From Candidatus Zixiibacteriota bacterium (GTDB lineage: Bacteria; Zixibacteria; MSB-5A5; GN15; JAAZOE01): 64,000 nt of DNA. A model generated the notes under the pieces. The model saw only the letters and a list, made by a program, of their open reading frames with translations. It ran no database searches and was not told the DNA's origin. A program made the position numbers and the translations under genes. The stretch is taken from positions 124,001 through 188,000 of the forward strand of contig JAZGGI010000024.1 of NCBI GenBank assembly GCA_036480375.1. Reading direction: 5' to 3'. Shown here one piece after another: positions 6,876-13,985 of this stretch (within the stretch, counting starts at the first letter, position 1; each line of letters opens with the position of its first letter).

Positions 6876-7292
6876 ATGGGTAAAAGGCATTTTACAACAT
6901 CTGAAGTCGCCAGACTTCTTTCGGTGGCGCCTGACACGGTTCTTAAGTGGGTCAAGGCGGGAAAGATAGCTTCATATCGAACTCCAGGAGGTCATTCTCG
7001 AATTCCTGCTGAGGCGATTGAAAAGATGTTGCCCGATGATCGACTTTTGAAAAAGTCAAAAGAGCTTCATCCGGACAGAAATGATTCCTTTCAATATTGC
7101 TGGGAATTTTTTGCCAAGTCGAGCGGACTCAATGAAAACTGCCAACATTGCATTGCTTATCGCAGCCGTTCGCAAAGATGTTATGAGATGAAGCATATTC
7201 CCAAAGAATTTGGCCATCTGAAATTATATTGTAAAGATAGCTGCGAAGAATGTGAGTATTATCTTCTGACTCATTTTGAGAATAAGTTATAG
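6876..7292 (+). CDS. Excisionase/MerR-type HTH regulator with C-terminal cysteine cluster
   Basis: Residues 5-52 form a helix-turn-helix of the excisionase/MerR family (TTSEVARLLSVAPDTVLKWV, then GKIASYRTPGGHSRIP). The remaining 85 residues carry seven cysteines at 75, 89, 92, 102, 119, 123 and 126, in the pattern C-x13-C-x2-C-x9-C-x16-C-x3-C-x2-C. The CWEFF and CYEMK surroundings resemble the small two-CW type cysteine domains found in anaerobes. Such a cluster could hold zinc or an iron-sulfur centre and make DNA binding redox-responsive. That is inference. It sits 75 nt upstream of the macro-domain gene and faces the same way as the redox operon, so it is a candidate regulator of it. No Shine-Dalgarno is visible. 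Confidence 0.75.
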   Translation: MGKRHFTTSEVARLLSVAPDTVLKWVKAGKIASYRTPGGHSRIPAEAIEKMLPDDRLLKKSKELHPDRNDSFQYCWEFFAKSSGLNENCQHCIAYRSRSQRCYEMKHIPKEFGHLKLYCKDSCEECEYYLLTHFENKL

Positions 7293-7366
7293 GGCGATTA
7301 CAGATCGCCGACGGTTTATACCGGAGGCTTTTCTGTAATTAAATATAAATAAATTGGGAGGGATAA

Positions 7367-7900
7367 ATGAGTGACACGTTGTCTATCAACGGGGGTACTA
7401 TTCGTCTAATTCAAGATGATATTACTCTCCTTAAGATTGATTCATTCGTATATTATGCCCGTCATGACTTGAATCTGGGTTCTGGATTTGGCGGGGCGAT
7501 TAGCATCCGGGGTGGTCCTTCGATCCAGGAAGAGCTAAAAGATAAAGGGTCTCTTGAAACTACTGATGTTTATGTATCGGGGGCTGGGGATTTGGAAATG
7601 AATTATATTGTTCATGCCGTTGGCCCTCGTTTTCAGGAAGAAGATTTAAATGAGAAGCTCGAACAAACGATTGCCAAAACTCTCAGCGCCGCGGAAGAAA
7701 AAGGGATCAATAGCATCGCTTTTCCTCCAATGGGATCGGGGTTTTATGGCGTTCCAATTGATGTTAGCGCCGAAATCACACTGAAAGCGGTTAAGGAATA
7801 TCTCTCCAATAATCCGAAAATCAAAGATATCGTTGTTTGCGCCAATGACAGACGGGAATATCAGGCGTGCCAGAATCAATTAAGGAAGATGGGAGGGTAG
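7367..7900 (+). CDS. Macro-domain protein (ADP-ribose or nucleotide-derivative binding)
   Basis: The 177-residue single-domain protein matches the macro fold. It opens with IRLIQDDITLLKIDSFVYYA, followed by GSGFGGAISIRGG, then YIVHAVGP and FPPMGSGFYGVP. The usual V-N-A-A-N strand is replaced by FVYYARHD, so the asparagines that support hydrolysis in MacroD-type enzymes are missing. Binding rather than hydrolysis is likely. The gene is preceded by GGGAGG at 7356-7361. It ends 9 nt before the cytochrome b gene, which suggests one transcript. A macro domain beside a NarI-like cytochrome and an Hdr-type reductase is an unusual pairing. Confidence 0.85.
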   Translation: MSDTLSINGGTIRLIQDDITLLKIDSFVYYARHDLNLGSGFGGAISIRGGPSIQEELKDKGSLETTDVYVSGAGDLEMNYIVHAVGPRFQEEDLNEKLEQTIAKTLSAAEEKGINSIAFPPMGSGFYGVPIDVSAEITLKAVKEYLSNNPKIKDIVVCANDRREYQACQNQLRKMGG

Positions 7901-7909
7901 GGATTCAAT

Positions 7910-8581
7910 ATGAGTAGTCAATTACATTTTGCCGAGCATACTCTACAGGAGATAGCCCTGGTCTTCATGGCCCTTGTCTATATTATTCGGTTATTCTGGC
8001 TGACCCGATTTATGGCGGGCAAGGAACGGCAGGCGCCCACGGGCATTGGTATGCTAAAGCCTCGCAAGAGTATTATATACTCCTGGGCGAATGTCGCCAT
8101 GCCATGGGCGATGGAAAGTACGCGCACCAAGCTCTTTTTGTATTTACAATTTGTAATCTTTCACCTGGGAGTTACGGTGGCTATCGCGCTGTCGTTTATT
8201 ATTCCGTATCTGCCGAATTTCCTGATGATTACAGGGGTCATCCCCGCGCTTCAGATTATAATCGGAGCGGCGTTTATTGTCGGATTGATGAGAATTATTC
8301 GGCGGGTCGGAAGCAAATATATTCGGGCGATATCAACTCCCGATGATCATTTTTCATTGTGGTTTTTGACAATCTGGTTTGCCTTTGCCTTTTTAGCCGT
8401 GCCCAATGATATTTCGGGCGGCGAGACTCTGATGATGATTTACTTTTACCAAACGGCCTTTTTCTTAGTTTACGTTCCGTTTTCCAAGATTTCGCATTAT
8501 CTGTATTATCCGTTTACTCGTTACTATCTTGGAAAGACGTTAGGGCGACGGGGAGTATATCCGATGCGCCGTTCGTCATGA
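7910..8581 (+). CDS. NarI/QmoC-like membrane cytochrome b subunit
   Basis: The 223-residue protein has about five membrane helices (near residues 13-32, 69-94, 99-123, 144-165 and 177-200). Histidines within or beside helices (FHLG in helix 2, HFSLW before helix 4, KISHYLYYPF in the last) and the closing YPFTRYY match the NarI-type family that carries two b hemes and exchanges electrons with quinone. Such subunits anchor Hdr/Dsr/Qmo-type iron-sulfur reductases. The gene directly after encodes exactly that kind of reductase. The start ATG 7910 follows GGGAGGG at 7891-7897. Heme ligation is inferred from family resemblance. Confidence 0.75.
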   Translation: MSSQLHFAEHTLQEIALVFMALVYIIRLFWLTRFMAGKERQAPTGIGMLKPRKSIIYSWANVAMPWAMESTRTKLFLYLQFVIFHLGVTVAIALSFIIPYLPNFLMITGVIPALQIIIGAAFIVGLMRIIRRVGSKYIRAISTPDDHFSLWFLTIWFAFAFLAVPNDISGGETLMMIYFYQTAFFLVYVPFSKISHYLYYPFTRYYLGKTLGRRGVYPMRRSS

Positions 8582-8630
8582 ACGAAGAGCAAAGCGGATA
8601 ATATATTGATAATGAAAACTGGAGATGGAT

Positions 8631-10370
8631 ATGTCTGAAAATAATAGATCACACAAAGCCAAAAAAGTTTTGGAGCGGATGGGTAAAAAACTCAACCGCC
8701 AGATAACCAGTTCATTGATAGCCTGCGTTCATTGCGGCAATTGTACCGAAGCCTGCCATTATGTTCTGGCCAATCCTGGCGATCCCACTTTCGCTCCCGC
8801 CTATAAAGCTGATAAAATTCGCTCGATATTCAAGAGACATTTTGACTGGACCGGTCGGGTGATACCCTGGTGGGTCCACGCTAAATCGGTTTACACCGAT
8901 GATGATTTGGAAGAGTTAAAAGATACGGTCTTTGGCAAATGTACTAATTGCCGTCGCTGCACCATTAACTGTCCCATGGGCGTCGATTATGCGACGTTTA
9001 ATCGTATGGCTCGCGGGCTATTGGTGTCCGTCGGGATTATGCCCGAGGGCGTAGCCGTGGTTAGTAAAGACCAATGGGAACTGGGTAATCAGATGGGGGT
9101 TCTCAAAGAGGATTATATCGATACCCTGGAATGGCTAACCGAAGAGCTACAGATGGAGCACGGTGATACTTATCCCGGAATTCCGATTGATAAAAAGAAC
9201 GCCGATGTTGTATATTCGATAAACCCTCGTGAAGTAAAATACGACCCGCGTACGATCAGCGACGCGGCCTTGATATTTAATGAAGCCGGCGAAGACTGGA
9301 CGATGCCGTCAGACAGCTGGGACATGACTAACTTTGGCCTATTTTCCGGCGATGATGATTTGGGCGGAGCCGTTGCCCGACGTCTTTATGAAAAAGTAGA
9401 AGAACTTGAGGGAAAGAAGCTGGTAATTTCCGAATGCGGTCACGGTTATCGATCGACTCGCTGTGAGGGGCCCAACTGGGCTAAGCGCGATGTTAATTAC
9501 GTGATGGAAAGCTCAGTTATAACAATGCTGAGATATATAAAAGAAGGCCGAATTAAAGTTGACAAATCTAAAAATCCGGAGCCGGTTACTTTTCATGATT
9601 CCTGCAATAATGCCAGAAGTTGCGGATTGTTTGAAGAACCTCGCGAACTTATGAATTTGGTCTGTGAAGATATCCGGGAAATGTATCCCAATCGGGCCGA
9701 AAATTATTGCTGTACCGGCGGCGGCGGGGCCATGTCGATGTCGGAATACACGCCGATGCGTTTGAAATCGGCCAAGATCAAGGCTGATCAGATGACGGCA
9801 ACCGGAGCCAAGTATGTCGTAACTTCCTGTCACAACTGCGTCGATGGATTGGCCGATTGTATCAAGCATTACAAACTTGATATGAAAGTCACCCAATTGG
9901 TTAACCTGGTGGCCAATGCCCTCGTGATCGAAAAGGTTGAAGAACCTGTTATCGTGCCTCCGGAAGAAGCGGCGATTGAAGGAAAACTGGCGGGATTTAC
10001 GATTCTTGTTGTTGACGACGAGCCTGATTTTGTTACATTTGCATCAACGCTCCTTGAAGATAACGGTGCCAAAGTAATAAAGGCTTACACCGGTGAAGAA
10101 GCGCTTGAAACCGCGCGCCGTGAAAAGCCGGATTTGATTACTTTGGATTTGAGTATGCCCGGTCAATCGGGTTCTGATGTCTTTGAATCGATTCGCAAAG
10201 ATCCGGAATTAAGGGGCATGATGGTTTGCATTATTACCGGCAAACCGGAATTACGTCGTTTGATTTACGAGCGAACAGTGAAACCGCCGGATGGTTACGT
10301 TGATAAACCGATTACGGAGGAGACGTTGCTCTTTAATGTTCGTAAGATATTAGATACTATGCATAAATAG
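8631..10370 (+). CDS. HdrD/DsrK-type 4Fe-4S reductase fused to a C-terminal response-regulator receiver
   Basis: The start is set at ATG 8631, because GGAG (8621-8624) is 6 nt upstream of it and abuts the earlier in-frame ATG at 8625. This gives 579 residues. Two ferredoxin motifs lie at C32-x2-C-x2-C-x3-C42 and C104-x2-C-x2-C-x3-C114-P. A CCG-type catalytic region follows. It has C269, C325 and C331 (HDSCNNARSCG), the CCTGGGG motif at C360-C361, and C400/C403 (TSCHNC), as in heterodisulfide-reductase HdrB/HdrD and DsrK. Residues about 456-579 are a full CheY-like receiver (LVVDDEPD, phospho-acceptor D506 in LITLDLSMP, ITGK, DKP). A catalytic Hdr-type subunit carrying its own receiver is unusual. 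It is flanked by the membrane cytochrome and a histidine kinase. Confidence 0.9.
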   Translation: MSENNRSHKAKKVLERMGKKLNRQITSSLIACVHCGNCTEACHYVLANPGDPTFAPAYKADKIRSIFKRHFDWTGRVIPWWVHAKSVYTDDDLEELKDTVFGKCTNCRRCTINCPMGVDYATFNRMARGLLVSVGIMPEGVAVVSKDQWELGNQMGVLKEDYIDTLEWLTEELQMEHGDTYPGIPIDKKNADVVYSINPREVKYDPRTISDAALIFNEAGEDWTMPSDSWDMTNFGLFSGDDDLGGAVARRLYEKVEELEGKKLVISECGHGYRSTRCEGPNWAKRDVNYVMESSVITMLRYIKEGRIKVDKSKNPEPVTFHDSCNNARSCGLFEEPRELMNLVCEDIREMYPNRAENYCCTGGGGAMSMSEYTPMRLKSAKIKADQMTATGAKYVVTSCHNCVDGLADCIKHYKLDMKVTQLVNLVANALVIEKVEEPVIVPPEEAAIEGKLAGFTILVVDDEPDFVTFASTLLEDNGAKVIKAYTGEEALETARREKPDLITLDLSMPGQSGSDVFESIRKDPELRGMMVCIITGKPELRRLIYERTVKPPDGYVDKPITEETLLFNVRKILDTMHK

Positions 10371-10409
10371 ACAATCGGATATAACGGCCCTTGGAATCGA
10401 GAAGTGGGT

Positions 10410-11864
10410 ATGGATAATCTATATAAGACTTATTTTAAGGCGTTACCCTGCTATCTTACGATTCAGGATCGCGATTTTAAGATTATTGATGCCAACGAAA
10501 ATTTCGTTAAGAATTTTGGAGATTTTAGGGGCCGTTATTGCTATCAGATATATAAGAAACGCCCGGAAAAATGCGAGGACTGTCCGGTTGAAAGAACTTT
10601 TTTGGACGGTAAAAGGCACCGCAGCGAGGAATTGGTCAAAACCCTGGACGGTCGGGAAGTTTCCGTAATCGTTTATGCGACACCCATACATGATGAAGAC
10701 GGAAAAATTACTTCGGTGATGGAAATGTCAACCAATATCACCGAGATAAAAATGCTTCAAAAGCAACTTAAAAACAGCCAGGAAAAGTACCGCCTGCTTT
10801 TTGAGGAAGTCCCCTGCTTTATCTCCATACAGGATCGCAATCTCCGCATCGTCGAAGCCAATCGTTTGCATCGTGAAGCATTCGGGACGTTTTATGGCTG
10901 TAAATGTTATGAGGTTTACAAGCATCGGGACAAAGCCTGTCATCCATGTGCGGTCCTGAAAACATTTGACAGCGGTAAAGTTCATTTACATGAAGAGGTT
11001 GTAGTCGCCCGCGATGGCCGGCAAATGAATGTTATGGTAATGACGGCACCGATTTATAATGATGATGGCGAGATTGAAAGCGTTATCGAGATGTCCACCG
11101 ATATTACCCAGATTCGGGAACTGCAGACTAAGTTATCCTCGGTCGGGATGATAATCAGTACCATCTCACACGATCTCAAAGGCCTTCTCAACGGCATGGA
11201 CGGAGGTATTTACCTGGTTAATACCGGAATGCAGAAAGAGGACCGGGACCGCATCGACAAAGGCTGGGAGATGGTTCTGCGAAATGTTGACCGGATTCGC
11301 AGCACCGTGCTGGATATCCTGTATTATGCCAAGGATCGCGAACCTGAATGGTCGGAGCTTAGGCTCAGTGAAATTATCGAAGAAATTTATTCGGTTATGA
11401 AACCCAAGGCCGAAAGCCTCAAAATTGATTTTTCTAAAGAAATTATTCTGGATAATGACACGTTTAAGGCCGATAGCAATGCGATTCGTTCTATGCTCAT
11501 AAATCTGATTGATAATTCTTTTGATGCTTGCCGGGTTGATAAGCAAAAAGAGAACCATGAAGTAATGATAAATATCACAGGTGATTCCGAAGAAATAAGA
11601 TTTGAGATTTCCGATAACGGTATCGGTATGGATCAGGAGACTCGCGAAAAGGCTTTTACACTATTTTTCTCATCCAAAGGATCCGGCGGTACCGGACTGG
11701 GACTCTTTATCGCCAATAAAATCGCCCAATCTCACGGAAGTAATATCGAGATCGAGTCGGAGCCGGGGGTGGGTACGAAAATATCTATCGTCATGCCTCG
11801 GGACCATGTCGATTCCGCCGCGAGTAATGAATCTGAAGACTCCCAGTCTACTAATAAACCTTAA
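10410..11864 (+). CDS. Soluble histidine kinase with two tandem four-cysteine PAS domains
   Basis: ATG 10410 is preferred over the in-frame GTG at 10404, because AAGTGGG lies just upstream. The 484-residue protein has no membrane helix. PAS1 (about 6-110) and PAS2 (about 128-235) are duplicates. Each opens with PCYL/PCFI and carries cysteines with identical spacing, C-x29-C-x10-C-x2-C (C14, C44, C55, C58 and C136, C166, C177, C180). A dimerisation domain with phospho-histidine H254 (STISHDLKG) and a HATPase follow (NLIDNSFDA, DNGIGM, GGTGLGLFIA). The cysteines could bind metal or an iron-sulfur cluster, or form switchable disulfides. It lies 39 nt after the reductase-receiver fusion and before a stand-alone receiver, both likely phosphorylation partners. 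Confidence 0.9.
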   Translation: MDNLYKTYFKALPCYLTIQDRDFKIIDANENFVKNFGDFRGRYCYQIYKKRPEKCEDCPVERTFLDGKRHRSEELVKTLDGREVSVIVYATPIHDEDGKITSVMEMSTNITEIKMLQKQLKNSQEKYRLLFEEVPCFISIQDRNLRIVEANRLHREAFGTFYGCKCYEVYKHRDKACHPCAVLKTFDSGKVHLHEEVVVARDGRQMNVMVMTAPIYNDDGEIESVIEMSTDITQIRELQTKLSSVGMIISTISHDLKGLLNGMDGGIYLVNTGMQKEDRDRIDKGWEMVLRNVDRIRSTVLDILYYAKDREPEWSELRLSEIIEEIYSVMKPKAESLKIDFSKEIILDNDTFKADSNAIRSMLINLIDNSFDACRVDKQKENHEVMINITGDSEEIRFEISDNGIGMDQETREKAFTLFFSSKGSGGTGLGLFIANKIAQSHGSNIEIESEPGVGTKISIVMPRDHVDSAASNESEDSQSTNKP

Positions 11865-11901
11865 ATTTTTGATCACCAACCTTAAAAATCGTATAAAGAT
11901 A

Positions 11902-11930
11902 TTGATTGATTGCAGGGCATAGAGTATAAT
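11902..11930 (+). promoter_or_regulatory. Sigma70-like promoter of the stand-alone receiver gene
   Basis: TTGATT at 11902-11907, a 17-nt spacer and a perfect TATAAT at 11925-11930 lie in the 88-nt gap before the receiver gene. A ribosome site GGGAGG at 11939-11944 follows. The receiver may thus be transcribed separately from, or more strongly than, the kinase. Confidence 0.55.
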
Positions 11931-11952
11931 ATATACTTGGGAGGATAATGAG

Positions 11953-12333
11953 ATGTCAGATAAAAAAAAGATTCTGATTGTAGAGGATGAAGCCGATCAG
12001 AGAGATTGGCTGACCACATTTTTTGAAGATAACGGTTACGACACAATTACAGCCGAAGATGGGCAAAAAGGTTTCGAGCTGGCCAGGACCGAAAGTGTTT
12101 CCCTTATCACTCTTGACATAAGTATGGATAATGAATCCGGAATCAAGGCGATAAGAAATCTGCAGGAAACGCCGGCGACCGTCAATATCCCGATCATAAT
12201 AATAACTGGAGTATCAAGTGATTTTAAGCGTTTTTTGGAGCGTTCCAAAAAAGTAAATCCACCGCAGGGTTATTTTGATAAACCGGTTGATCGGGATGAG
12301 CTTCTTAAGAAGGTCAAAGAGCTAATCGGTTAA
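11953..12333 (+). CDS. Stand-alone response-regulator receiver protein
   Basis: The 126-residue protein consists only of a CheY-like receiver (LIVEDEAD acidic pocket, phospho-acceptor D55 in LITLDISM, IITG, DKP). No output domain is present. It resembles the receiver fused to the iron-sulfur reductase upstream. Both have LITLD-x-SM and a distinctive PP-x-GY-x-DKP segment before the conserved lysine, so the two probably arose by duplication. It is likely phosphorylated by the PAS-PAS kinase and may compete with the reductase-borne receiver or relay phosphate from it. Its own promoter lies at 11902-11930. Confidence 0.9.
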   Translation: MSDKKKILIVEDEADQRDWLTTFFEDNGYDTITAEDGQKGFELARTESVSLITLDISMDNESGIKAIRNLQETPATVNIPIIIITGVSSDFKRFLERSKKVNPPQGYFDKPVDRDELLKKVKELIG

Positions 12334-12473
12334 TTATTCGACTTTCAATAAGAAAATTCCCATTATTCTTGAGCGTAATAATCTTGCCCTCTATCAATTG
12401 TTTATAGAATTTAAATATCCGCCGATATTATTGATACATATTATAAATTATTTTTTTGAGGACGGGGATAAAA

Positions 12474-13985
12474 TTGACAAAAACGCACAGTCCAGACCTT
12501 TATAATTTTCGCAGCCCTTTAATCCTATTGATTTCCGTATTTCTCGGCTTAAATTTGGGCTGTACGAAAAGCGAGACGAAATCATTCAGGGACAATACCT
12601 TTTCTCTTTTAGAATCTATAAGAATTGAAAATAAGAATGAAATCCTTGATCATTTTCAAAGTCAATTTCAAATCGCCGGACGGGCCGCCAATGATCCCCG
12701 GCTGATTGATATATTTCTTGAATATTATAATCAGGGGCGGAAGTGGAGTATAAATTCGAATCTTGAGTACAACCTCGATAAACATTTTGTTGAACATTAT
12801 GGCGAGTTTTATGATTTATTATTTCTTGATACGACGGGATTTGTATTCCATAGCATCAGGCAGGAATCCGATTATAAAACGACTTTGATCTCCGATACTC
12901 TGCCGGTTAAACTAGCCAAAAGCTTGAAATCTATAAACTCATCTTCCTTTATAGATTATGAGCATTATTGTCCTTCGGATGAGCCCGCGGCATTTATGGT
13001 TACTCCGGTTAATATTGGGACGTCCGGCGCGGGTTGGCTCGTTTTTCAGGAACCGATAAATCGCGTTAACGCAATTTTAACCAACCGTCAGGGAATGGGA
13101 CGGACCGGCGAAGTGTATCTCGTCAATAGTAAAAACGTTATGCTGTCCGAGTCTCGATTTATAAAGGGCCAAACCGTACTTCGCAAGAAAATCCGGACCG
13201 AGGCCATCAATACAGCTCTTAGAGAAAAACATGGGAACAAAATAATTGCCGACTATCGCAATGTACCCGTCTTCAGTTCTTTTGAGATATTTGACCTACT
13301 CGGCACTGACTGGATTATCATTGCGGAGATAGACGAGGCCGAAGTTTTAACTGAATATTACCGCCAAGTCTCAAAGGAAATTTACGATAACCTGATAACA
13401 TCAATTAAAAACGCGGCCGGTCCCAAAGAAATATCCATTCCGCGAATATTGTCGTCGCAAAAGGTTGACATGAATGAGTTTGTTGGCGTACGACCGGGAC
13501 AGACGGCGAAAACTAAAGGCGTATCGACCTGTACCGCTGTCGCGATTTCATTTCCCGGGAAATTTTCGTATCTGGCCCATATTTCGCCAACCGATATTTC
13601 TTATGAATCTGAGGATTCGCGGTTCATCTTTGGCGATGATAGTCAAAATCTATTGGGCCGTCTGCTGCAACGCATTCTCTATTTCGATATTTACAACTAT
13701 GAAATTGACAGCCTGTCGGTGACACTGGTCGCCACCCATGAAGAAAGTTATGAGGGTATTTTGAAGAACCTATTTGAGGTCGGCATAAAAATTAATCAGA
13801 TTAAATTTTTATTCAATCCAGCGGCAAATTACGTCGATGTCATCGTTGACCCCGTTGACGGCCAAGTGACCGCGGAATGGTATAGTATGAATAATTCATT
13901 TCCCTCAATCGAAAGCGACCTATATTGTAAAAACCTGGAACAGGTATTCAAGCGGACGATTTCTTATGCCAGAGAATTACCTTAA
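12474..13985 (+). CDS. Lipoprotein with Cache-type sensor domain and C-terminal CheD-like domain
   Basis: Start codons here are TTG. I prefer 12474 (GGGG 6 nt upstream) over 12456. The signal peptide ends in the lipobox LNLGC, giving lipid-modified C30. Residues about 45-300 resemble a double-Cache extracellular sensor. Its GRTGEVYLVNSKNVMLSESR motif is typical of the membrane-proximal part in chemoreceptors, and it ends in DWIIIAEID. Residues about 320-470 resemble CheD, the chemoreceptor glutamine deamidase. T347, C353 and H369 fall at nearly the spacing of the CheD Thr-Cys-His triad, within GVSTCTAVAI and LAHIS. There is no transmembrane helix, methylation region or kinase. A CheD-like domain exported with a Cache sensor would be unprecedented to my knowledge. 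The CheD call is my pattern reading. Confidence 0.6.
   Translation: MTKTHSPDLYNFRSPLILLISVFLGLNLGCTKSETKSFRDNTFSLLESIRIENKNEILDHFQSQFQIAGRAANDPRLIDIFLEYYNQGRKWSINSNLEYNLDKHFVEHYGEFYDLLFLDTTGFVFHSIRQESDYKTTLISDTLPVKLAKSLKSINSSSFIDYEHYCPSDEPAAFMVTPVNIGTSGAGWLVFQEPINRVNAILTNRQGMGRTGEVYLVNSKNVMLSESRFIKGQTVLRKKIRTEAINTALREKHGNKIIADYRNVPVFSSFEIFDLLGTDWIIIAEIDEAEVLTEYYRQVSKEIYDNLITSIKNAAGPKEISIPRILSSQKVDMNEFVGVRPGQTAKTKGVSTCTAVAISFPGKFSYLAHISPTDISYESEDSRFIFGDDSQNLLGRLLQRILYFDIYNYEIDSLSVTLVATHEESYEGILKNLFEVGIKINQIKFLFNPAANYVDVIVDPVDGQVTAEWYSMNNSFPSIESDLYCKNLEQVFKRTISYARELP

Follow-up and report, generated by a model that had tools for sequence, protein, structure and literature searches.

Gene content of the locus

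The window analysed here is a 64,000-nucleotide stretch of a Candidatus Zixiibacteriota contig. Six genes for redox and signalling proteins lie on its forward strand at positions 6876-12333, separated by gaps of 74, 9, 43, 33 and 88 nt. This same-strand block had been picked out in a first-pass annotation, and we confirmed all six ORFs and matched their domains:

6876..7292, + strand: HTH-Cys protein, 138 aa, with a MerR/excisionase-type HTH (HTH_17/MerR) and a 7-Cys domain
7367..7900, + strand: macro-domain protein, 177 aa (Macro match, 2.5e-23)
7910..8581, + strand: TmcC/HmcE/NarI-like cytochrome b, 223 aa (best NCBIfam matches TmcC/HmcE)
8625..10370, + strand: HmcF/TmcB/DsrK-like reductase fused to a complete receiver; residues 1-437 form the reductase part
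9996..10358, + strand: the fused receiver (REC) inside the reductase gene, approximately residues 458-578
10404..11864, + strand: soluble histidine kinase, 486 aa, with two PAS domains and HATPase_c
11953..12333, + strand: stand-alone receiver (CheY/DivK-like), 126 aa (Response_reg match), an optional member

No Rfam families were found in or near this module, and promoter and terminator scans across it gave results no better than those for shuffled sequence. Downstream, at window positions 12456-13985, lies the gene for a dCache-like protein of 509 aa, which is not conserved together with the module.

We compared the reductase to the NCBIfam models of related enzymes. It scored highest against HmcF (321 bits, cut-off 750), followed by TmcB (303 bits, cut-off 735) and DsrK (254 bits, cut-off at least 400), each match falling under the curated equivalog cut-off; the bona fide DsrK of the same genome scores 730 bits. 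The cytochrome b matched TmcC and HmcE at 37 and 33 bits, well under the cut-offs of 240 and 275, and had no Pfam match. Judged by sequence, the two proteins are members of this superfamily that lie outside all named equivalogs. The reductase homologues all retain the two 4Fe-4S motifs and the CCG cysteines, with C327, C362/C363, C402 and C405 invariant, and the reductase thereby carries the complete CCG cysteine set of the DsrK-type catalytic domain.

The Response_reg match covers reductase residues 460-569 (1.4e-18). The active site of the fused receiver consists of D464, D465, D508, T538 and K561 in the window; intact fused homologues never vary at the two N-terminal aspartates, D508 or K561, and have Thr or Ser at position 538. 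The protein therefore joins a receiver with the DD, D, T/S, K site to an enzyme, the arrangement of a response regulator with an enzymatic output. When its structure was predicted (pLDDT 82.5), the fusion showed a C-terminal receiver fold, and the remainder matched EtfD/HdrB-like proteins. In the receiver tree the fused domains form one group (91/86), separate from the solo receivers and from the HTH-borne domain described below. The deep order of the wide hdr tree was not used, since DsrK and a clostridial sequence lie on long branches.

The cytochrome had been called NarI-like, which holds for its general relationship and for one of the two histidine pairs. The only invariant histidines among its homologues are H85 and H196, which align with NarI H56 and H205, the ligands of the proximal heme. 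The distal-heme pair, visible in Hmc-like (type B) homologues from the same phylum, is missing, and the cytochrome thus lacks the four axial histidines of a NarI-type two-heme protein. Since only the proximal-type pair is conserved, the protein is expected to hold one heme, facing the cytoplasm. With the distal heme lost, a classical transmembrane quinol route is uncertain.

Each of the two PAS domains of the kinase contains an invariant C-x10-C-x2-C set (C46/57/60 and C168/179/182). These cysteines, C138 and the phospho-acceptor H256 are invariant across 39 sequences.

The Cys-rich HTH protein of the first-pass annotation is present, but the window copy is shortened. Its orthologues reach approximately 255 aa and have at their C-terminus a degenerate receiver-like domain, which gives a weak Pfam match and a receiver fold in the predicted model. 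This domain retains the phospho-acceptor Asp and, in some sequences, Lys-Pro, but not the acidic pair normally found towards the N-terminus. The window copy (138 aa) stops ahead of this domain. A short inverted repeat (ggcgat...atcgcc) lies in window positions 7293-7366, directly after the shortened gene, where the orthologues run into the receiver-like domain.

Across homologues of the macro protein, (Y/F)YAxxDL takes the place of the NAAN motif of MacroD/YmdB-type hydrolases. As NAAN is absent from all homologues aligned, the protein probably binds a ligand without hydrolysing it.

Distribution of the module and coupling of receiver and kinase

Next, we explored how widely the module occurs, using family searches for all genome-wide statements. 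A close orthologue of the reductase, intact or fragmentary, was found in 34 of 132 genomes of the Zixibacteria phylum (56-83% identity). Related loci occur outside this phylum in metagenome-assembled genomes (MAGs) labelled Acidobacteriota, Myxococcota/'Deltaproteobacteria', Elusimicrobiota and Planctomycetota. Most of the genomes are MAGs, whose completeness varies and whose labels may be wrong; one 'Pirellulaceae'-labelled genome measures 11.7 Mb and may be mis-binned. Contamination or mis-binning is possible for some labels, but as the sole cause of the wide spread it fails to explain linkage of the genes on single contigs. Dozens of assemblies carry the HdrD/DsrK-REC fusion, and this recurrence rules out an assembly artefact or a fusion confined to a single genome.

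The order and content of the module likewise recur in dozens of genomes, as (HTH-Cys)-macro-cytochrome-reductase/REC-kinase-(solo receiver). No flanking family recurs beyond a few loci. The retention of internal order between varying flanks indicates that the module is a discrete unit. Its constant core comprises the macro protein, cytochrome, reductase/REC and kinase, and the HTH protein and solo receiver are optional. A macro gene lies upstream in 42 of 43 REC-bearing loci (duplicates counted; the exception is L090), and the HTH-Cys gene is found in about half of the loci.

We then compared the occurrence of the fused receiver to that of the kinase, counting manually the distinct loci with enough downstream sequence after removal of loci fetched twice. 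The kinase is adjacent in 34 of 35 REC-bearing loci and in 0 of 8 REC-less relatives (Fisher 6e-8). L017 is the sole exception, with a fused receiver and no kinase nearby. Genome G120 (L021) has a reductase with a stop codon ahead of an apparent decayed REC remnant, and lacks both the kinase and the solo receiver. The solo receiver is absent near the kinase in 13 of the 34 kinase-bearing loci. At two minimal loci, L069 and L074, the fused receiver is the only one beside the kinase, with neither solo receiver nor HTH gene nearby. Given the strict co-occurrence, the joint loss in G120 and the two minimal loci, the simplest reading of these sequences is that the reductase-borne receiver is the main partner of the kinase. 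The enzyme-kinase module of the first-pass annotation is upheld as a real, conserved entity: of the findings that were to refute it, a fusion confined to one assembly and neighbours that vary among relatives were both looked for and contradicted.

Two irregular loci were set apart. The apparent chimeric reductase of L098/L037 (G023) was rejected as a misassembly, because the reductase and dsrA are both split there, and was left out of the counts. L066 (G091) has no in-frame receiver, yet leaves room for one before the kinase; we took this for a probable frameshift and kept the locus out of the REC-less set.

Association with dissimilatory sulfite reduction and comparison with known complexes

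The first-pass annotation had overlooked a link to dsrAB, dsrC and dsrMKJOP, as well as the single heme of the cytochrome, the third (degenerate) receiver and the pairing of kinases with HdrD-type reductases in other operons. Among the 132 Zixibacteria genomes, dsrAB is present in 31 of 34 with the module and in 22 of 98 without it (Fisher 9e-13). The association persists after stratification by family (CMH p 8e-6, OR 19); kinship was corrected at this level only, and the co-occurrence can partly stem from shared ancestry. Three module-positive genomes lack dsrAB: G120, with its decayed module, and two whose completeness is 73-74%. Under other taxonomic labels, dsrA was found in 14 of 14 fused-module genomes tested. 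Zixibacteria have been listed among the lineages with a full Dsr pathway (PMC10591310).

The association is also physical. At L069 and L074 the dsr operon itself contains the core, which has dsrC on one side and dsrT-M-K-(J)-O-P on the other. The REC-less relatives adjoin dsrC (L030, L031, L091-L097) or dsrMKOP (L029), and the DsrC proteins beside them have both C-terminal cysteines. Among these loci, L091-L097 are three-gene operons, dsrC-cytochrome-reductase, which lack REC and are complementary to the REC-fused form; dsrA was not found in the genomes that carry them. The module is thus associated with dsrAB and dsrC both across genomes and along the chromosome, although in most genomes it is not adjacent to dsr genes. 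It is not essential to the Dsr pathway, since 22 dsrAB-positive genomes do without it.

A dsr cluster lies just outside the window, with NCBIfam matches to dsrA, dsrB, a DsrL-like flavoprotein, dsrC, DsrM and DsrK; the module is ~11 kb from dsrA, and aprA is found ~50 kb beyond the cluster. A small ORF at the dsrD position had no Pfam or NCBIfam match. The region just upstream of the window (L104, G000:C24:106000-124000) contains the dsr cluster including dsrO/P-like genes, with an HdrA2-like protein adjoining. From its gene content the organism looks like a sulfate/sulfite reducer. As its genome encodes a bona fide DsrM and DsrK, the module represents an additional complex.

We compared the module to characterised complexes. 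The Hmc complex of Desulfovibrio vulgaris (HmcABCDEF) shares a NarI-like cytochrome b (HmcE) and an HdrD-type Fe-S subunit (HmcF), and is linked to rrf1/rrf2, regulator genes that affect hmc expression (PMC10924467). However, neither the multiheme HmcA nor HmcB, HmcC or HmcD is found among the conserved neighbours of the module, which instead has a receiver fused to the HmcF-like subunit, a dedicated Cys-PAS kinase and a macro gene. The Tmc complex (TmcABCD) has a comparable membrane subunit (TmcC) and reductase (TmcB), whereas the module has only one pair of heme-ligand histidines and lacks the TmcA cytochrome c and TmcD among its conserved neighbours. DsrMK(JOP), a DsrC-trisulfide reductase (PMC10504309), resembles the module in its cytochrome b and CCG-type reductase, its dsr gene neighbourhood and DsrC as the likely partner, and differs in having neither the REC fusion nor the kinase.

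Receivers attached to metabolic or redox enzymes, such as REC-thioredoxin reductase, have been noted in bacteria and archaea (PMC5847659); the present fusion differs in that the receiver is joined to an HdrD/DsrK-type subunit of a membrane complex, with a kinase encoded alongside. In the literature searched we found no REC fusion on such a subunit with an adjoining kinase gene. The nearest precedent is Hmc with rrf1/rrf2, which the first-pass annotation did not name. The term 'response regulator' is absent from three papers that deal with the diversity and evolution of Dsr (PMC10591310, PMC10504309, PMC7596348), and searches for literature on DsrK phosphorylation and on DVU0258/0259/0264 returned nothing useful.

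Within the same phylum, Hmc-like (type B) and DsrM-like/DsrK-like (type C) operons also combine an HdrD-type reductase with a related Cys-PAS kinase (~33-43% identity). Their receivers are separate proteins, unlike the fused receiver of the module, and some type C operons have an Rrf2 gene upstream. Besides a Cys-PAS kinase and several receivers, each of the Hmc-like operons L099, L100, L103, L109 and L110 encodes HmcF-, HmcE-, HmcB- and HmcC-like proteins; the multiheme HmcA was not seen in these five. L101, L102, L107 and L108 pair DsrM-like and DsrK-like genes with a HEAT-repeat protein, one or more receivers and a Cys-PAS kinase, with Rrf2 upstream in L101 and L108. The DsrM-like/DsrK-like copy in the window genome (L106) has an Rrf2-like gene and neither kinase nor receiver. 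A further operon of this genome (L105:5661-10114, G000:C35) encodes a DsrC-like protein, a cytochrome, a DsrK-like reductase and a double-DsrC-domain protein, with a paralogue of the HTH-Cys protein nearby. By these comparisons, the pairing of kinase and reductase is a recurring theme; what is new here is the covalent fusion, together with the macro gene and the link to dsr.

Proposed function of the complex

We propose that the module encodes a reductase complex, accessory to the Dsr pathway and directed at DsrC, whose own kinase phosphorylates the reductase, a model that we consider evenly balanced between right and wrong. The cytochrome b would anchor the reductase, and electrons would pass between menaquinone and the cytoplasm through the one cytoplasm-facing heme. 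In the cytoplasm, the HdrD-type Fe-S/CCG subunit would reduce, or oxidise, a disulfide or trisulfide, for which DsrC is the most likely carrier. Phosphorylation of the fused receiver by the soluble Cys-PAS kinase may tune activity or docking to the redox or sulfur state, and the receiver could act in docking rather than in gating electron flow. Where present, the solo receiver and the HTH-Cys(-REC) protein would supply a transcriptional arm, and the macro protein probably binds an ADP-ribose- or NAD-type ligand. More tentatively, and with confidence somewhat short of even, we suggest that sulfite reduction is tuned post-translationally by a His-Asp phosphorelay, in which the Cys-PAS kinase would read the thiol/redox state and phosphorylate the receiver on the DsrC-directed membrane reductase, enzyme and sensor forming one feedback loop.

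The flow of information might instead run in the opposite direction, with the reductase serving mainly as a sensor input. The fused receiver would then dock the kinase, the redox state of the complex, read through the Cys-PAS domains, would set kinase activity, and the output would be transcriptional, through the solo receiver and HTH-Cys(-REC) protein. Both of these proteins are frequent members of the module, the HTH protein has a receiver-like domain, the same genome has a paralogue of it next to another DsrC/DsrK-like operon, and Hmc is regulated by rrf1/rrf2 (PMC10924467). However, the minimal loci L069 and L074 retain the fused receiver and kinase with neither candidate output protein nearby, and docking alone does not need the full catalytic REC site that has been retained; we regard this alternative as possible but rather unlikely. 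The same active-site conservation, with four residues invariant and only Thr or Ser at position 538, also argues against a fused receiver that does not regulate catalysis at all, whether it served constitutively in structure or oligomerisation or acted as a phosphate sink. Phosphorylation-independent receivers do exist, as in the pseudo-receiver literature (e.g. PMC12632262), but here REC and kinase are retained or lost jointly, and a purely structural role appears distinctly improbable.

A separate question is whether the complex belongs to sulfite reduction or is a general quinone/thiol oxidoreductase, Hmc/Tmc-like, that is merely present in sulfur reducers. The top scores of the reductase against HmcF and TmcB, rather than DsrK, are consistent with such a general role, as are REC-less relatives that adjoin dsrC in genomes where dsrAB was not found (e.g. 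G088, G001-G004). Against this stand the dsrAB association within families, the occurrence of dsrA in every module genome tested under other labels, the insertion of the core into the dsr operon and the decay of the module in the dsr-less genome G120. We therefore think a role outside sulfite reduction unlikely.

Control of sulfate and sulfite respiration has been studied mostly at the level of transcription. If the proposed accessory Dsr complex is correct, the fused receiver would be a direct phosphorylation switch on the respiratory electron flow of a membrane redox complex, and sulfite respiration may be adjusted by direct enzyme phosphorylation, beyond control at the level of genes alone. 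Zixibacteria and several other uncultured lineages would then have, within their Dsr pathway, an accessory complex that had not been named before. It would also offer a testable candidate for how these organisms keep DsrC reduction in step with the cellular redox state.
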